Assembly: GCA_029260165.1 (NCBI GenBank)
Contig: JAJDDT010000053.1
Span: 1 to 64,000, forward strand
Source of the DNA: Phycisphaerae bacterium
GTDB taxonomy: Bacteria; Planctomycetota; Phycisphaerae; UBA1845
Length of the DNA stretch: 64,000 bases
Direction: 5' to 3'
Shown here: in pieces, positions 26,980 through 34,912 of the stretch
Layout: every line of letters starts with the position of its first letter
Position numbering within the stretch: the first letter of the stretch is position 1
Notes under the pieces: generated by a model
The model's database searches: none
Told to the model about the DNA's origin: nothing
The model's input: only the letters and a program-made list of their open reading frames with translations
Position numbers and translations under genes: made by a program

Positions 26980-27831
26980 TTAATACGAATCAATCTTCCC
27001 GCGCTTCCGCAGTTTCGCCTTCGCATTGTACACCCCAACCGCCGCCTGCACCTCTCGCCAAACACTCTTCCAATCACCCCCACCACAAACCCGCCGCAAA
27101 AACCGACACCGATCCGCCCGACTCAACCCGACAGCCCCACTCAAACTCGCCGCCAACCGAACCACCATCCGACGCTCATCCGCCACCGAAACCCGCCCAA
27201 CTTTTTCCAACCCATCCAAATCCACCAACCAGGCCCGACAACCCTCCGCCCCAGCATCCCAACCCGTCAACAAAACATTCGACGCCTTGAAATCCCGATG
27301 TCGCCACCCTTTCTCTACCAATCTCTCAAACAAATCAGCCAAACATCGCACCACGCCGTCCACGACCACCCGCCGACGATCACGCCCCACCCCCACAACC
27401 AATCCACCCAGCACACGATCCAGATCCACCACACCATCAATCGCTTCAGTGATCAGCCAACCCTCACGTTTCCACCACCCACGCTCCAGATACGCTATCG
27501 GACCTGCCGTCGGAATCCCATCCGCCACCAACGCGTTCGCCCGATCCCAGTTCCGCCGCTCCCGCGACCCCCGCAAAACCCCCGCCAACCGCGCCCGCCA
27601 CCCGGAGGCCAAACTCCGCTTGCAAACCACATCCAACCCATTCTCCCCATCCCCCAGCCGACAACCAAAAACCTCCACCGTCCCGGAAGTCTTAAAAACC
27701 ACCCGCCCCGAAACACCCGCAGGATTCGCAACCAACGTCTCCAGCCCCGCGCGCAACCCGTCCTGTTCGTCCACGGACGCAATCCAGCCACGCCATCCAC
27801 CCGCAAGGACAACCCGTTTCATTCTCCGCAT
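26980..27831 (-). CDS. lipopolysaccharide core kinase-like protein (Kdo/WaaP family)
   Basis: About 283 residues with a eukaryotic-like kinase core. Visible elements are VFKTSGTVEVF and the Lys in VCKRSL (ATP-binding lobe), the catalytic loop HRDFKASNVLL and the metal-binding VDLDG in place of DFG. This matches the WaaP/KdkA group, which phosphorylates sugars of the lipopolysaccharide core. The Arg-rich insert (GRDRRRVVVDG) is peculiar. The start could be 27831 or 27822. The downstream TolC-like gene lies on the same strand 193 bp away. Confidence 0.85.
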   Translation of the reverse strand: MRRMKRVVLAGGWRGWIASVDEQDGLRAGLETLVANPAGVSGRVVFKTSGTVEVFGCRLGDGENGLDVVCKRSLASGWRARLAGVLRGSRERRNWDRANALVADGIPTAGPIAYLERGWWKREGWLITEAIDGVVDLDRVLGGLVVGVGRDRRRVVVDGVVRCLADLFERLVEKGWRHRDFKASNVLLTGWDAGAEGCRAWLVDLDGLEKVGRVSVADERRMVVRLAASLSGAVGLSRADRCRFLRRVCGGGDWKSVWREVQAAVGVYNAKAKLRKRGKIDSY

Positions 27832-28024: not shown

Positions 28025-29602
28025 TTATTCAGTCTTGAGGTTCTTGTTGTCTTCAAGGAACTCGAAAAATTTCCCGGTGGCGGCACAAAGCTCCGCCACG
28101 TTCGCACCGATCAGAAACGTCAGATTCGAGATTTCCTCTTCCTGATCAAAAACATTCTCCCGACGCTGCAACAAGTCATCAATGCTCATCTTCCCCACTG
28201 TGTACGTCGCCTCGCCCTCCTCGAAACTCGTCCTGAATCGTGGAAGATTCTCCAACAACTGCTTCTGACTCGCGCCAAGCGTGTCGATCCGAATGACAGG
28301 CTCCAGAAGATCGACGAAAATCTGATTCTCCCGCGCAACGATCGCCTCGGTGAATCGGTTGATTCGCGCCTGCGCTTGTCTCGCAAGGCTTGTCGTCACC
28401 CGCGGATCGACGTGGCCAACATCCAGGCCGACCGACGCGCTCCAGTCCGACACACCTTCATCCGAACCACGTCCCTCGAGATTCCCCGCCCCCGAAATCA
28501 GAAGCGACACATCCCACGTCCCCCGCCTCGCGAGATTGAGCTGCACGGTGGCGTTGTCCACCTCATTGCGAAGCGTCGCGATCTCGGGATCGGTCTCAAT
28601 GCTGATTCTCAGAAGCTCATGATGCGGGATTCCCTCAAACGGGTTGAATTCCGCGTTCTCAAGCACCAGTTGCGCATACATCGGAACCCCGATCGACGCC
28701 TTCAACCGACCCATCTCCACGTCATAACGCCCATGCACGATCCGCAACTCAGACGCAACCCGCGTTCGCTCGGCACGAAGACGCTCGACATCCGCCGACG
28801 TGTCCCGCCCTTCAATCGCACCAAGCTTCTCGAGCAACCGTTCCAGGGTGGTCAGCCACCGCTGCGCGTTGTCCATCCGCCTGTCATAATGCACCACTTC
28901 GTAAAACTGAAACATCGCGTTGCGAAGTCGACGCCGAACCTGCTGAATATACGCAAGCTGCGCGTCGTTCATCAGATTACGCCGAAATATCTCCTCGCTC
29001 GATCGCTCCAGTCGTTCCCGCGAGGCGAACAGTGGGTAACGAAGATCCGCGAAGACAAAGGGCTGATTTCCGATGTCGTCGTCCACGTCCGCCGACGAAT
29101 AGCCGACACCGACGTTCAATTCCGTCGTATCGAAAAACAGCTTCTCAACGGACAGTTCCACGCTGTTCTGGTATCGTCGTGTCACCGTTTCCGTGGCTCG
29201 ACCTTCGGAAAAATCGTTCCGGATGCGAAGCTGCGGCGTCAGCGAATCTCGCGACACGACGAAAAAATCATAACGAGCCTCCTCGGATTTGAAGGCTTGA
29301 TAGCTCGACTTGACATTCGGTTGCAGGTCAAATGCAAGGTCGATCAACGTGCGAGGCGACACGTCGAAGACATCGTCTTTCCGCAGCGGCGAGAGTCGGT
29401 CCTCGCTTGGTTCCGACACGATCGACGCAGGGATGGGAAGCCTGACCGTTTGCCGCAGTTGTTCGGAGGGCATCAGGGTCGTGCATCCCGCAGTGAAAAG
29501 AAAACAGGCCGTCACCCAAAAAAGACCGAAACGACCCGTTGAAAGAGAACCACCAATCGAAAGTCTTGTTTTCAAGGAAATCAGGTATCCCGTGGCTGCC
29601 AT
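28025..29602 (-). CDS. TolC-family outer-membrane lipoprotein
   Basis: 525 residues. Lipoprotein signal (hydrophobic core then FTAGC, Cys near residue 40), followed by two outer-membrane efflux-protein repeats with long helical segments (LERSSEEIFRRNLMNDAQLAYIQQVRRRL and the second set around RIDTLGASQKQLLENLP). Usually TolC relatives partner with inner-membrane transporters, but none is next to it. ATG 29602 was selected because it gives a proper lipoprotein signal; the frame remains open upstream into the divergent sigma gene. Confidence 0.87.
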   Translation of the reverse strand: MAATGYLISLKTRLSIGGSLSTGRFGLFWVTACFLFTAGCTTLMPSEQLRQTVRLPIPASIVSEPSEDRLSPLRKDDVFDVSPRTLIDLAFDLQPNVKSSYQAFKSEEARYDFFVVSRDSLTPQLRIRNDFSEGRATETVTRRYQNSVELSVEKLFFDTTELNVGVGYSSADVDDDIGNQPFVFADLRYPLFASRERLERSSEEIFRRNLMNDAQLAYIQQVRRRLRNAMFQFYEVVHYDRRMDNAQRWLTTLERLLEKLGAIEGRDTSADVERLRAERTRVASELRIVHGRYDVEMGRLKASIGVPMYAQLVLENAEFNPFEGIPHHELLRISIETDPEIATLRNEVDNATVQLNLARRGTWDVSLLISGAGNLEGRGSDEGVSDWSASVGLDVGHVDPRVTTSLARQAQARINRFTEAIVARENQIFVDLLEPVIRIDTLGASQKQLLENLPRFRTSFEEGEATYTVGKMSIDDLLQRRENVFDQEEEISNLTFLIGANVAELCAATGKFFEFLEDNKNLKTE

Positions 29603-29647
29603 ACATCCGCGCTTTGACCAGCAATAGACTGTCGGGAAAATAACGGC

Positions 29648-30301
29648 ATGAGTGCAAAAGGGCGACCCCCACAATTCAACCCATCCCCCGACGATCCGGC
29701 GCGCGAGGAAATCAACCGTCGGGACGCCAAGCTCGCCCGCGGTGTCCAGGCAGGCGACACCGAAGCACTCCGCCGGCTGATGCACCATCAGGACAGGCTC
29801 GTACGCTTCACGATTTATCGGACCCTCAAGGACGCCTGCACCCGCGACCCCCACCTCATCGACGCCGTCGCCTCCGAAGTCTGGACCGGATTCGTCGCGT
29901 CCATCAACCGCAAAGGCGTTCCCGACGGTTCCATCCGTGCCTACCTCGTGACCATCGCGCGAAACAAAGCCACCGATTTTCTCCGCAGGGAAAGCCGGCG
30001 ACCCAAGGCCGATGGCGGGGACCTGGGCGATTTGGTAGTTAGTGATGCTGATCCAATGTCAGTGATAATGGATGCCGAGCGGGTCGATTTCGTTCGCGAC
30101 TGCATGGCTGACCTGGCCGGTGATGACCGTAACCTGTTGCAGGAAATGGAGTTACTCCTCAACTCGCGATGGCGGGAAGCTGCTCAGGCACTGGATATCC
30201 CGGAATCCACCCTGCGTTCGCGCTGGAAAAAGGTGTTGGATCGCCTGCGACGCTGCGTGGAAAAAAAACTGCGTGAAAATCCGGAAAATCTCGCGCGGTA
30301 G
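29648..30301 (+). CDS. ECF-type RNA polymerase sigma factor
   Basis: 217 residues. Region 2 spans about 45-115 (RLVRFTIYRTLKDA, AYLVTIARNKATDFLRRESR, the -10 binding part) and region 4 about 150-205 (helix-turn-helix REAAQALDIPESTLRSRWKKV). A 30-residue charged N-terminal extension precedes region 2. It is divergent from the TolC-like gene and followed, 74 bp on, by a single-pass protein that could be its regulator. The + strand changes from C-rich to G-rich within this gene, at about 30.0 kb. Confidence 0.93.
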   Translation: MSAKGRPPQFNPSPDDPAREEINRRDAKLARGVQAGDTEALRRLMHHQDRLVRFTIYRTLKDACTRDPHLIDAVASEVWTGFVASINRKGVPDGSIRAYLVTIARNKATDFLRRESRRPKADGGDLGDLVVSDADPMSVIMDAERVDFVRDCMADLAGDDRNLLQEMELLLNSRWREAAQALDIPESTLRSRWKKVLDRLRRCVEKKLRENPENLAR

Positions 30302-30375
30302 GGGGTTGGCTACGACAACTGCGGTGTATTGGGTCAGCGATCGGCGTGTGCCGGTTTGCAATCCGAGGCGAAACA

Positions 30376-30894
30376 ATGCAGTCAGAACATGAAACAACCC
30401 GCGATTTTGAGGATCTGCTGAGGATGGCGGTTGAGGCTGAGCAGGCGGGCGTTTTTCGCCCGACACCGGCTGACCCTGCCGCGATCATGTCCGATCCGCA
30501 TCGGAACGCGACGCGGGACGATGCGAGCCGTCAGGCGACGCGGGAATCGGAATCCGGTTTCGCAGGTCACAGGTTGGTGCTCCGTTTGGGGCGTTTGGCA
30601 GGCTCGTTGGCGGCTTGTCTGGTGATTGCGGTTGGAATTTCGCAGATTTGGCCGGCGGGTGGTGGTCAGTCGTCGCATGTCGCCAACCTGTCGCAGAGTA
30701 CCGGTGCCACAATGTTGGTGGATTCGGTTGAGCGGTGCAGCAGTGATTTTACGTTGTTCAACACCTGTTTCACGGGCCCGTCGATCGATGGTTTGACGAG
30801 CGATTGCAGGTGTGTCGATTTTGATCGTGATGGTGATGTTGATTTCGCCGACTTTGGTTTGATGCAGCGAGCGTCAGCCATGTCGAACGGATAA
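30376..30894 (+). CDS. single-pass membrane protein with extracytoplasmic dockerin-like module
   Basis: 172 residues. A hydrophilic N-terminal part (1-70) opens DFEDLLRMAVEAEQAG. One membrane helix follows (about 72-92). The C-terminal extracytoplasmic part at 124-170 is a dockerin-like EF-hand module: Cys-FTGP...Cys-x-Cys, then DFDRDGDVDFADF. The position right after an ECF sigma gene and the cytoplasm-helix-exterior layout suggest a sigma-regulator or signal-relay protein; no recognised anti-sigma domain (ZAS) is present. GAGG lies seven bases before the ATG. Confidence 0.72.
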   Translation: MQSEHETTRDFEDLLRMAVEAEQAGVFRPTPADPAAIMSDPHRNATRDDASRQATRESESGFAGHRLVLRLGRLAGSLAACLVIAVGISQIWPAGGGQSSHVANLSQSTGATMLVDSVERCSSDFTLFNTCFTGPSIDGLTSDCRCVDFDRDGDVDFADFGLMQRASAMSNG

Positions 30895-30975
30895 TCGTTT
30901 TGGAAAGCACGTCGCGTCGGTTCTGCCGGCGTGGACAATAAGATGGTTCACTCATACAGGATTGGAGTTACGAAA

Positions 30976-32217
30976 ATGAAAAGTTTTGCAACAGTATTGA
31001 TCGCCCTGACGATCGCCGGCGTTGCGTCGGCGGATACGTTGACGGCTCAGGTGGAATTGCTCGGGGCTGACTCGGCGGGTACAGGCGAGGCGATTCCGTT
31101 CCGCGTCGTTGGTTCGTTGACCAGTGACGATCCCGGCAACGACGGTCTCGCGTTTATCAGCATGGACTTCTCGCTTGTCAGTCTCGCAGACAACAGCACA
31201 CCCGTCGAGCTTGGAACGGCCATGACATTGGCTGCCCCTGGTGACGGCACGATGGACAACTTTGTTCAGCCGCTTGGTTACGACGCCAACTACGGTGGTA
31301 CAGCCGTTGGCAACGACATCGTTCAGGCTGGTGGTGCACAGAATACCATCGGTAACAACCCCGGTGCTGATCCGTTCCTGGCGTTTCCGTCAGCGGAATT
31401 CATCAGCATCAACGTTGGCCAGGGTGGTCAGGTCGTTTTTGAAGGTACGCTGACGTTCTCTGCCGGCGATCCTTTTGGTGATTACGAAATTCGCGTCAGC
31501 AACGTTTTGGCGAATGTCATCTCCAGCGGTGCCGCAGCCGGTTCGTTCGCGATTTATCCTGTTGAAGCAGCCACGGGCGTTGCTGGTGGTGCTGTCACGG
31601 TTTCTCACCAGGAATGTGCTGCCCTTGCGTTTTCCGAAGGTGCGGCTGACATCTCGGCTGAAGGGCGTATGTTCGATGGTTACATCGATCCGCGTGCTGA
31701 TACCACGGGTGGGAACCCGGTCGGTCTTGACTCGTTCGACATCGTCTTCACAACGCCTGCCGAGAACACAGATGGCAGCTCGCTGGATATGTCGGCGTTC
31801 ACTGTTTCCCAGACGGGTGGCAATGCGGTTGCACTAGCTGGCATCGCGACCGAGGATGGTCGGGTTGTGACGATCAATCTCGATGGTCCGCTGCCGGTTG
31901 ATAACTGGGTCACGATTTGTGTTGCCGCTCGTGCTGCCTGCTCGGGCAACGACATTTCGCCGGGCGATGACTGCATCGACATCGGTTTCCTGCCTGGTGA
32001 TATCGATCAGAGTGGTGGTGTCAATCCGATCGACCTGTTCCGCTTCCGTCAGTTCATCAACGGTGTTTCAGCGCCTACGTTTGGTACGCTGGAGGATTTC
32101 ATTGATACCGATCGCAGTGGTACGGTTTCTCCGCTCGACCTGTTCCGTCTCCGTCAGGGGTTGAACGGTGTTGGCGAAGACCCATGGGCCGATGCTTCGT
32201 TGCCGGCTCAGCCATAA
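30976..32217 (+). CDS. secreted dockerin-domain protein
   Basis: 413 residues. Signal peptide (MKSFATVLIALTIAGVASA). Residues 20-205 form a beta-rich, cohesin-like region (IPFRVVGSLTS, VVFEGTLTFSAGDPFGDYEIRV), then an Ig-like region with a GMFDGYID-type motif, and finally a type I dockerin pair (GDIDQSGGVNPIDLFRFRQF and DTDRSGTVSPLDLFRLRQGL). GGAG lies eight bases before the ATG. A strong hairpin follows the stop. It lies 81 bp after the preceding gene, so the three genes from 29648 may form one operon. Confidence 0.87.
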   Translation: MKSFATVLIALTIAGVASADTLTAQVELLGADSAGTGEAIPFRVVGSLTSDDPGNDGLAFISMDFSLVSLADNSTPVELGTAMTLAAPGDGTMDNFVQPLGYDANYGGTAVGNDIVQAGGAQNTIGNNPGADPFLAFPSAEFISINVGQGGQVVFEGTLTFSAGDPFGDYEIRVSNVLANVISSGAAAGSFAIYPVEAATGVAGGAVTVSHQECAALAFSEGAADISAEGRMFDGYIDPRADTTGGNPVGLDSFDIVFTTPAENTDGSSLDMSAFTVSQTGGNAVALAGIATEDGRVVTINLDGPLPVDNWVTICVAARAACSGNDISPGDDCIDIGFLPGDIDQSGGVNPIDLFRFRQFINGVSAPTFGTLEDFIDTDRSGTVSPLDLFRLRQGLNGVGEDPWADASLPAQP

Positions 32218-33202: not shown

Positions 33203-34912
33203 TCATTGGATTCGGGCGTTTTTCAGTGCGTGGGTGATGTCGTGAAGTCGGTCGGGCTTGTTGTTTTGAAGCCAGCAGGTTTCGTAGTCGGTGATCAATG
33301 TGCCGAGTTCCCGGGACCATTGGGAGCTTGAAATGAGTGGTCGGTCGGCAATGAGTCCGGCTGCGTGGCAGGCGAGGAGCCATTCCTCGATTTCGGGGTT
33401 TGAAGGGTCGCACTGGTGTAGTCGTTGGAGGGCGATTTGGGCTGCGGTTTGCAGGGTTTGTGCGTGTTCCAGTGGCAGGGGGTCGGTATTGTCGAGCTGT
33501 TGGAGGGTAGGCCAGGACAACGAGCCGGCCAGGGGTCTGGAGACGTTTTTGAGTGCGGCGAACATGTCGCCCGGTCCTTTGGGGAACAGCCAGTTGTTGA
33601 TGGCGTGGTCGAGGGTTGGTGATTGAAGGGCGTTTTGATTCCATGCGAGGCTTGCGGTGAGTGCAATGGCGGGCAGGGAGCAGGCGGGGAGATTGAAGTG
33701 TCCATCGTCGCCCCAATCGGTCACGATCAGACCTGTGGCGTGTTGAGTGTGCGCTGCGTTGGCTGCTTTGGAGATGTTGGTCTGGGCTGCGGTGAAATCG
33801 TTGATAACGCGTTTCCAGCCACTGGTTCCGGGGCAGGCGATGACGTCGCGGTTGCGGCGGTGGGGGGATGTGAGAGCGGGGAATTCGGAGTCGGGTTCGT
33901 ATCCCCAATCGAGGAGGATGGCGTCTTCGGGGAGTTCGCAGAGCAGTTCGGGGTGGTTTCGGATGATGTCGCCCCAGAACATCATGCGTTTGCCGTGACG
34001 GCGGCAGGAATCGGCGAGAAATTTGAGGTGATCGACGTAGAGTCGTCCTGTTCCGACCTTTTCGGCGAGGGATTTGTTCCTGCCCTGGCCCAGGTCGTGG
34101 GTTTCGTCGGCGCAGACGTTGGCAAGTTTGCTGGAGAATAGTGGGAGAAATTCGTCGAGCATTTTGGTCAGGAGTTCTTGAGAATCGGGGTTGGTGACGT
34201 CGATGGTGAGTCCGCGTTGGCGTTGGAGCCAGGTTTGGTTTTCCCACGGTGTGTTTGTTGGGATTTCGGCGAGGTGTTGGTATTGGGGGAGGGAGAGGAT
34301 GCGGCCCATGTGTCCGAATGTTGCGAGGGAGGGGACGAGGTCGATGAAGCGGTCGCGGCAATATTTGTCGAGGGTGCGGATGTCGTTGGCGGTGAGGGGT
34401 GAGCAGTTGTGGCTTATGTCGGGATCGAAGGAGAAGGCGAAGGTGTGTTCGACGTAGAGTTGGAGGTGGTTGATCTTGAGCTGGGCGAGGCGGTTGGTGA
34501 GACGGAGGAGGGTTTGGAGCTTGGGGACCCTGCCTCGGGAGACGTCGAGGGAGAGTCCGCGGATGGGCAGGTCGGGCGCGTCGTGGATGGTGAAGCAGGG
34601 GGTGGGGGTTTTGCGGTTGCGTGTGATTTGGCGGAGCGTCTGGAGTGCGTGGAACAGTCCTGTGTTGTCGGCGGCGTTGATGGTGAGGTTGTTGGTTTCG
34701 GCGATGATGGTGTGGGCGTTGTTGGGCTCATGATTCGAGATGGTGGCGTGGAGGGGTAGTGATCGAGGTGATGTGGTGAACAGGTCGGGAAACAGGGGGA
34801 TCATGTGTTTGCAGGCGTCGGGGAGATTGGGGGTGAATGTTGGTTCGGGGAGATTTCCGGAGTGTTGGGCGAAGGATTTTGGTGGGGGCAGGAGCGATTG
34901 ATCGGGGTTCAT
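33203..34912 (-). CDS. GH20-like beta-N-acetylhexosaminidase
   Basis: 569 residues. An N-terminal small domain (about 1-130, with NNLTINAADNTGLFHALQTLRQI) precedes a TIM barrel beginning at DLPIRGLSLDVSRGRVP. Barrel landmarks are INHLQLYVEHTFAF, DLVPSLATFGHMG, the catalytic Asp-Glu in VCADETHDLG, RMMFWGDII and VTDWGDDGHFN. GH20 enzymes use substrate-assisted hydrolysis of GlcNAc/GalNAc ends. No signal peptide seen, so a cytoplasmic role such as amino-sugar recycling is possible. ATG 34912 was chosen; upstream frame runs through a REP-like element. The + strand is G-rich here although the gene is on minus. Confidence 0.85.
   Translation of the reverse strand: MNPDQSLLPPPKSFAQHSGNLPEPTFTPNLPDACKHMIPLFPDLFTTSPRSLPLHATISNHEPNNAHTIIAETNNLTINAADNTGLFHALQTLRQITRNRKTPTPCFTIHDAPDLPIRGLSLDVSRGRVPKLQTLLRLTNRLAQLKINHLQLYVEHTFAFSFDPDISHNCSPLTANDIRTLDKYCRDRFIDLVPSLATFGHMGRILSLPQYQHLAEIPTNTPWENQTWLQRQRGLTIDVTNPDSQELLTKMLDEFLPLFSSKLANVCADETHDLGQGRNKSLAEKVGTGRLYVDHLKFLADSCRRHGKRMMFWGDIIRNHPELLCELPEDAILLDWGYEPDSEFPALTSPHRRNRDVIACPGTSGWKRVINDFTAAQTNISKAANAAHTQHATGLIVTDWGDDGHFNLPACSLPAIALTASLAWNQNALQSPTLDHAINNWLFPKGPGDMFAALKNVSRPLAGSLSWPTLQQLDNTDPLPLEHAQTLQTAAQIALQRLHQCDPSNPEIEEWLLACHAAGLIADRPLISSSQWSRELGTLITDYETCWLQNNKPDRLHDITHALKNARIQ

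Follow-up and report, generated by a model that had tools for sequence, protein, structure and literature searches.

Do an extracytoplasmic function (ECF) sigma factor gene, a gene for a small membrane protein with a calcium-binding tail and a gene for a secreted dockerin protein, lying in a row on one strand, make up a single signalling system? The question is raised by a locus in a 64,000-nucleotide stretch of DNA from a Phycisphaerae bacterium (positions 1 to 64,000 of contig JAJDDT010000053.1; hereafter the window). A first-pass annotation placed three open reading frames between 29648 and 32217, likened the membrane protein to the regulators of clostridial SigI/RsgI systems and considered the secreted protein as a possible signal or target. 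All three reading frames are present at the positions given and both outer limits fit the start codon calls; the third gene probably starts at 30976 and not at the upstream GTG at 30931, as relatives align from the methionine at 30976. Comparison with related genomes indicates that the sigma factor and the membrane protein encoded directly downstream of it (hereafter the partner) form a conserved two-gene regulatory unit, present as one pair per genome.

By profile matching, the product of the first gene is an ECF sigma factor with regions 2 and 4 only, fitting the ECF superfamily model. It matched TIGR02937 at 46.8 bits (cut-off 42.9) and Sigma70_r2 at 33.8 bits (cut-off 24), with a weak match to Sigma70_r4 (15.8 bits, under the cut-off of 24.1) and a conserved ESTLRSRW motif in region 4. 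Its own genome contains one strong match to the sigma factor, the next best standing at 1e-10. The sigma profile, run against 114 genomes belonging to the order, matched strongly (E below 1e-25) in 48 of 51 genomes from the window's family, all matches outside that family being weak. The sigma factor is missing from three family genomes, G020, G023 and G088; a search for the partner in 397 genomes of the class gave no match in G020 or G023 and a single one in G088, at E 1e-3 and covering part of the profile. Partial second sigma matches lie on other contigs in two fragmented genomes (G089:C318 and G091:C194), both having a TTGACC promoter of their own. Among named genomes a scan gave 36 loci, all but one titled Phycisphaerae, Phycisphaerales, Phycisphaera or Planctomycetota; the exception, JANQQE010000032.1, is titled Alphaproteobacteria, carries the sigma factor of this planctomycete pair and is probably a mislabelled genome.

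Linkage of the two genes was assessed in 49 fetched loci, comprising 47 other sigma loci and two further partner loci, in addition to the window. The partner lies immediately downstream in 45 of the 47 sigma loci; in one exception sigma factor and partner stand at the edges of different contigs, and in the other (G021) the pair is likewise on different contigs. With the window included, all 48 sigma-bearing genomes of the family encode a partner, adjacent to the sigma gene in 46. The linkage elsewhere whose absence the first-pass annotation had named as grounds for refutation is consequently found across the family, and its view of sigma factor and membrane protein as a unit is upheld. Searching 60 relatives with the middle protein led to a similar picture: among the fetched loci were 18 short full-length homologues, 16 with an ECF sigma gene directly upstream on the same strand, the other two having a contig end approximately 90 bases upstream and 863 upstream bases without a sigma gene, respectively. 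When neighbouring genes were clustered over the 49 loci, the next commonest family occurred in 13. As no other neighbour is conserved across these loci, the pair appears to be kept for its own sake and not through general synteny, and both the conservation of the partner and its linkage to the sigma factor are, on these comparisons, far beyond chance.

Conservation within the partner is confined to its two ends. Across 48 members, mean pairwise identity is 42% over residues 8-33, where the motif ExxLLxxAxxAExAGVFxxTxVD is found, and 44% over tail residues 125-165, compared with 11-17% in the linkers. Hydropathy indicated one hydrophobic membrane helix in all 48 (median start near residue 56). 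Lysine and arginine residues in the 15 residues flanking this helix average 3.2 on the N-terminal side and 1.15 on the C-terminal side, being more numerous on the N-terminal side in 37 members and equal in seven; this charge bias, the one basis for orientation, favours an N-terminus inside the cell and a tail outside. A structure model of the partner (predicted local distance difference test score, pLDDT, 74) placed helices at residues 6-23, 34-38 and 44-52 before a membrane helix at 65-89 and a small helical tail, with block pLDDT values of 93 for residues 11-20 and 86 for residues 21-30. Between membrane helix and tail lie 21-59 residues, and the tail ends 5-11 residues past a conserved glutamine. 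Two tail cysteines are present in 48/48 members, and the ligands of the calcium loop are almost as constant, with aspartate at positions 1 and 12 in 48/48 and at positions 3, 5 and 9 in 46/48. Exactly one such loop is present in 47 of the 48 members, the remaining one having a degenerate loop. Since there is one loop and the Dockerin_1 model gave no match to the window partner, the tail is classed from its sequence as a half-dockerin or single F-hand; a full dockerin is ruled out on the same grounds. These data agree with the layout first described for the middle protein (soluble N-terminus, single membrane helix, calcium-loop module with two cysteines on the outside), apart from the full dockerin module. 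Foldseek matches of the partner model were weak, all at E 2.6 or worse, with eight of ten to cohesin/dockerin structures of cellulosomes. The features of the locus and its surroundings are collected in Table 1.

Table 1. Coordinates of the features of the sigma factor locus and neighbouring genes in the window
Feature	Coordinates	Strand	Basis
ECF sigma factor gene, 217 aa	29648..30301	+	TIGR02937 and Sigma70_r2 over cut-off; single-copy orthologue across family
Partner membrane protein gene, 172 aa; putative anti-sigma factor, half-dockerin tail on the outside	30376..30894	+	Homologues directly downstream of sigma
Third gene, secreted protein, 413 aa, with beta-sandwich-like N-terminal regions and two-loop C-terminal dockerin	30976..32217	+	Dockerin_1 over cut-off; subclade-only
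Promoter-like site TTGACC-N16-GAAAAT, 6 bases before sigma ATG	29614..29641	+	Sequence pattern
Partner N-terminal helix with motif (cytoplasmic), residues about 6-33; putative sigma-binding segment	30391..30474	+	Conservation in 48 members; model
Partner single transmembrane helix, residues about 72-92	30589..30651	+	Hydropathy in 48/48; predicted helix 65-89
Partner outside tail, residues about 125-172: FNTCFTGP....C, then 12-residue Ca loop DFDRDGDVDFAD, F-helix near C-terminus	30748..30891	+	Conserved Cys and loop ligands
Outer membrane efflux protein (OEP) gene, upstream, divergent from sigma	28028-29566	-	Pfam
Kdo/WaaP-type kinase gene	26983-27825	-	Pfam
GH20 hexosaminidase gene	33206-34849	-	Pfam

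A second version of the pair was found in another family of the order, here called f8, in which weak partner matches fall beside weak sigma matches. Twenty loci were fetched for the weaker matches; in 13, all from f8 and each from a different genome, a homologous partner lies directly downstream of an ECF gene, and in the other seven there is no such partner. The f8 partner has an N-terminal LESLLxxLGEAxxAG motif, one membrane helix and one calcium loop, and comparison of the f8 and window partner family profiles gave a probability of 98.4 (E 4.4e-15 over 124 columns). Its tail differs in style: after CDYNGDGVVDGRDIQAF comes a C-terminal helix, of which the last residues are often LLG, and all 13 tails retain one canonical calcium loop. 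The 13 f8 partners end in a short R-x-L-L-x-G-like helix (for example QRCLLG) not shared by the dockerins viewed, and this ending may serve on its own as a signal for recognition or processing. A combined sigma profile (f1+f8) matched generic ECF factors in every one of 80 genomes from other families. As no calcium loop was present in the two most hydrophobic same-strand downstream frames of 30 loci from other families (1.5 kb flanks), no sigma-partner unit was observed beyond the two families.

The relation between the partner tail and secreted proteins was addressed with a profile of the tail. At least 103 matches were obtained in the window genome, with 150 of 389 candidates scored, and in 23 of the 29 non-regulator matches viewed no more than 6 residues separate the end of the module from the C-terminus. 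Nearly all of these 29 modules have, by eye, a first calcium loop upstream, which the regulator is without. The partner tail is shown by these profile matches to copy the second half of the two-loop C-terminal module borne by many secreted proteins. Two dockerin styles were noted in the window genome, a cysteine-pair type (DGDVDLADFxxFQxxFTG) and a cysteine-less type (PxDLFxFRQLxNG); the regulator tail corresponds to half of the former and the third gene (31993-32166) to the latter. A profile of the f8 tail gave 31-90 matches in each of 13 f8 genomes and none in three window-family genomes, and the window-type query gave 0 or 1 match in each of six f8 genomes among the 60 relatives. Because comparison with modules found by the tail profile itself was circular, loops were obtained independently of it from matches to the Pfam Dockerin_1 model, 20 in the window genome (35 loops) and the 30 best across nine f8 genomes (59 loops). 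All 48 window-family tails score higher on the window-genome loops (mean 25.0 compared with 9.7 on f8 loops), and all 13 f8 tails score higher on the f8 loops (36.4 compared with 16.5 on window-genome loops). As every tail matches the loops of its own lineage, the outside module of the regulator appears to follow the dockerin style of that lineage, which is what a decoy of a cargo tag would look like.

Expression of the unit was considered from the sequence upstream of the sigma gene. The pattern TTGAC[C/G]-N15..19-NA[A/T/C]AAT-N3..9-[A/G/T]TG is present in 26 of 47 loci and before only 1 of 284 neighbour genes, and in 24 of those 26 an in-frame ATG follows the -10 element by 6-7 bases. Because the ATG stands so close, the sigma mRNA is probably leaderless, with a conserved leaderless start. 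A strict form, TTGACC-N16-SATAAT, gave 76 matches in 51 genomes by hand count, compared with 27 for a spacing-13 control; by coordinates approximately 15 of the 76 belong to the sigma operon, and other strict matches precede reading frames that, named by eye, are tRNA-like, mnmE-like and gltX-like. Autoregulation through a shared promoter was considered and dropped, as the same pattern precedes tRNA-like and housekeeping frames; the sigma operon promoter may instead be a strong vegetative one. No regulon was found with the strict pattern in the 51 genomes.

An explanation that accommodates these observations is that the partner belongs to a new, minimal type of anti-sigma factor. Sigma/anti-sigma pairs are usually laid out as here, with the gene for a one-helix membrane protein behind an ECF gene, and on this ground and the conserved pairing the assignment is very probable. 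The partner would hold the sigma factor at the inner membrane through its short N-terminal helical segment, and the single membrane helix would, in the favoured orientation, carry the calcium-binding half-dockerin outside. There the tail could act as a decoy cargo tag, competing with tagged proteins for a periplasmic or surface receptor, assembly or processing system. The tail would change its state whenever this tag-handling system is free, overloaded or damaged, and the partner would release the sigma factor, presumably by regulated proteolysis or a change of shape and in a direction that is likewise presumed. The freed sigma factor might then adjust genes of the tagged secretome or of its handling system. 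As the best overall explanation, an anti-sigma pair with a decoy tail is judged rather likely. Given an anti-sigma pair, a tail acting as a decoy of the tag-handling system falls somewhat short of being probable; tentative, and a little more doubtful again, is the idea of a new kind of anti-sigma sensor in which half of a cargo tag serves as decoy, sigma activity depends directly on whether the receptor or assembly system is free or busy, and decoy and tag change together across lineages.

Several observations weigh against this explanation. The tail has one calcium loop, only half of the tag, and its match to the local dockerins could also arise from shared lineage drift of a common module and not from selection for mimicry; moreover, the loop test draws on one window-family genome and on the best 30 dockerins of nine f8 genomes. 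The f8 tail cysteines are not invariant and the f8 tail runs on into a different C-terminal helix. None of the 48 partners contains a known anti-sigma domain of Pfam at E 0.1, and the promoter is without sign of the autoregulation shown by many ECF systems. As for a receptor, the Pfam cohesin PF00963 was found at E 0.001 in 24 of 36 family genomes and was absent from the other 12, all of which carry the pair; a canonical cohesin as general receptor is accordingly not supported.

The main rival is that the tail is a plain calcium or redox sensor, its likeness to the secreted modules indicating only the origin of the domain. The near invariance of the loop ligands, the single canonical loop kept by all 13 sister tails and the two cysteines present throughout the window family are each what such a sensor would be expected to have, and a periplasmic EF-hand protein is linked to the ECF factor SigV in Caulobacter, as described in the available text of PMC13171946. 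Set against this, conservation extends beyond the ligands into the F-helix, which differs between the families in step with their own dockerins; redox sensing fits poorly with sister-family cysteines that vary, and calcium sensing with the degenerate loop of one family member. A plain sensor is on balance judged unlikely, and the decoy role is retained as the favoured function of the tail.

A second alternative concerns the other end of the protein: the partner may be a membrane-bound co-factor, activator or anchor of the sigma factor and not its inhibitor. The missing anti-sigma domain would agree with this, as would a cytoplasmic part so short that the membrane helix begins at about residue 56. 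Both the gene order and the outside module follow the usual sigma/anti-sigma plan (PMC6056542, in the text available), however, and very short inhibitors exist, the class II anti-sigma factor CnrY having a two-helix cytoplasmic segment according to the portion of PMC7406223 consulted. CnrY resembles the partner in the shortness of this segment and differs in its outside part, and no Pfam anti-sigma similarity connects the two. Nor does the partner fit class I, with its three-helix domain and frequent HxxxCxxC zinc motif, as no anti-sigma family of Pfam matched and the cytoplasmic part has no conserved cysteine. An activator or anchor is considered improbable, and the partner continues to be read as a minimal anti-sigma factor.

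The three-gene signalling operon of the first-pass annotation, with the third, secreted dockerin protein as signal or target, fares slightly worse. That this protein is a secreted dockerin protein with two repeats is borne out: Dockerin_1 matched residues 340-397 at 24.5 bits (cut-off 22.9), and its profile matched solved dockerins at E 0.0012. Its structure model is poor (pLDDT 54), and the best Foldseek match, a cohesin-FN3 construct at E 1e-5, ranks with many antibody domains and so shows only that beta sandwiches are present. Homologues of the third gene lie directly downstream of the partner in six of the 49 fetched loci and in the window (7/50), and wherever present the gene directly follows the partner, also where the sigma factor lies on another contig; within this subclade such constancy speaks for the three-gene form. 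In the other 43 loci the gene was absent by tblastn (E 1e-5), and the dockerin it encodes has two loops and no cysteines, in which it differs from the partner tail. A general three-gene operon is not consistent with this distribution, by which the third gene is assigned to a subclade and not to the core unit. A role for its product as the general signal or target is a distinctly low probability.

Least probable is that the partner is a structural anchor of a surface or other complex, standing beside an otherwise controlled sigma factor through inherited gene order: a cohesin/dockerin 'planctosome' has been proposed for freshwater Phycisphaerae (PMC6461901, in the part available), but flanking genes vary freely while the pair stays, the pair recurs in the sister family, a tail so near the membrane is unlikely in a surface anchor and the N-terminal helix equals the tail in conservation.

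The proposed anti-sigma pair with a decoy tail can be set beside several known systems. In clostridial SigI/RsgI, as outlined in the available part of PMC6056542, the gene after that for the sigma factor encodes a membrane protein that has its N-terminus in the cytoplasm, crosses the membrane by one helix and carries a sensing module outside. Gene order, membrane layout and a host with dockerin-bearing secreted proteins are common to the pair and to the SigI/RsgI systems of cellulolytic clostridia, and the regulator layout first proposed from this comparison is similar in plan. Membership is another matter. No SigI model was present among the 25 listed of 49 NCBIfam matches to the window sigma factor, the best hits being ECF models, and the RsgI N-terminal domain was not matched by any of the 48 partners at E 0.1; an ECF-type sigma factor and the absence of an RsgI domain rule the pair out of the SigI/RsgI family. 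The outside module is half of a cargo tag, unlike the carbohydrate-binding module of SigI/RsgI, and there is one pair per genome in place of sets of paralogues. In the type IX secretion system of Porphyromonas gingivalis, PorA-PorXY-SigP, a protein with the C-terminal domain of cargo reports to an ECF sigma factor controlling the secretion machine (PMC7712824, from the text available). Common to both would be a reporter bearing a cargo tag, here a half only, with no homology claimed; PorA acts through a two-component relay with the tagged protein on the surface, whereas here the tag half would sit on the membrane regulator itself. In the Caulobacter CaBP-SigV system, too, an ECF sigma factor is coupled to an EF-hand calcium protein that lies beyond the cytoplasmic membrane, but unlike the partner, CaBP is, in the part of PMC13171946 consulted, soluble in the periplasm, has three EF hands and is not a membrane anti-sigma factor. 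The planctosome concerns a dockerin-bearing secretome in the same class; it is a structural proposal, and the available portion of that paper (PMC6461901) describes no regulator. Literature on planctomycete ECF sigma factors, on anti-sigma factors with dockerin or EF-hand modules and on Phycisphaerae dockerins described no such pair, comparative papers on planctomycete ECF groups lying outside this coverage; an unnamed ECF group in that comparative work (PMC3497475, PMC7286433) may already include this sigma factor.

Phycisphaerae genomes encode dozens to approximately a hundred secreted proteins ending in dockerin-like calcium modules, and the pair gives a direct handle on them: the partner tail could be used as bait for a receptor, and the sigma regulon should reveal the machine by which tagged proteins are handled. 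If the proposal is true, one pair per genome would be the control point for dozens to about a hundred tagged proteins, and an anti-sigma factor could sense the flow of cargo by copying the cargo tag. These data suggest that the cell may watch its own secretion or surface-assembly system through a decoy tag.

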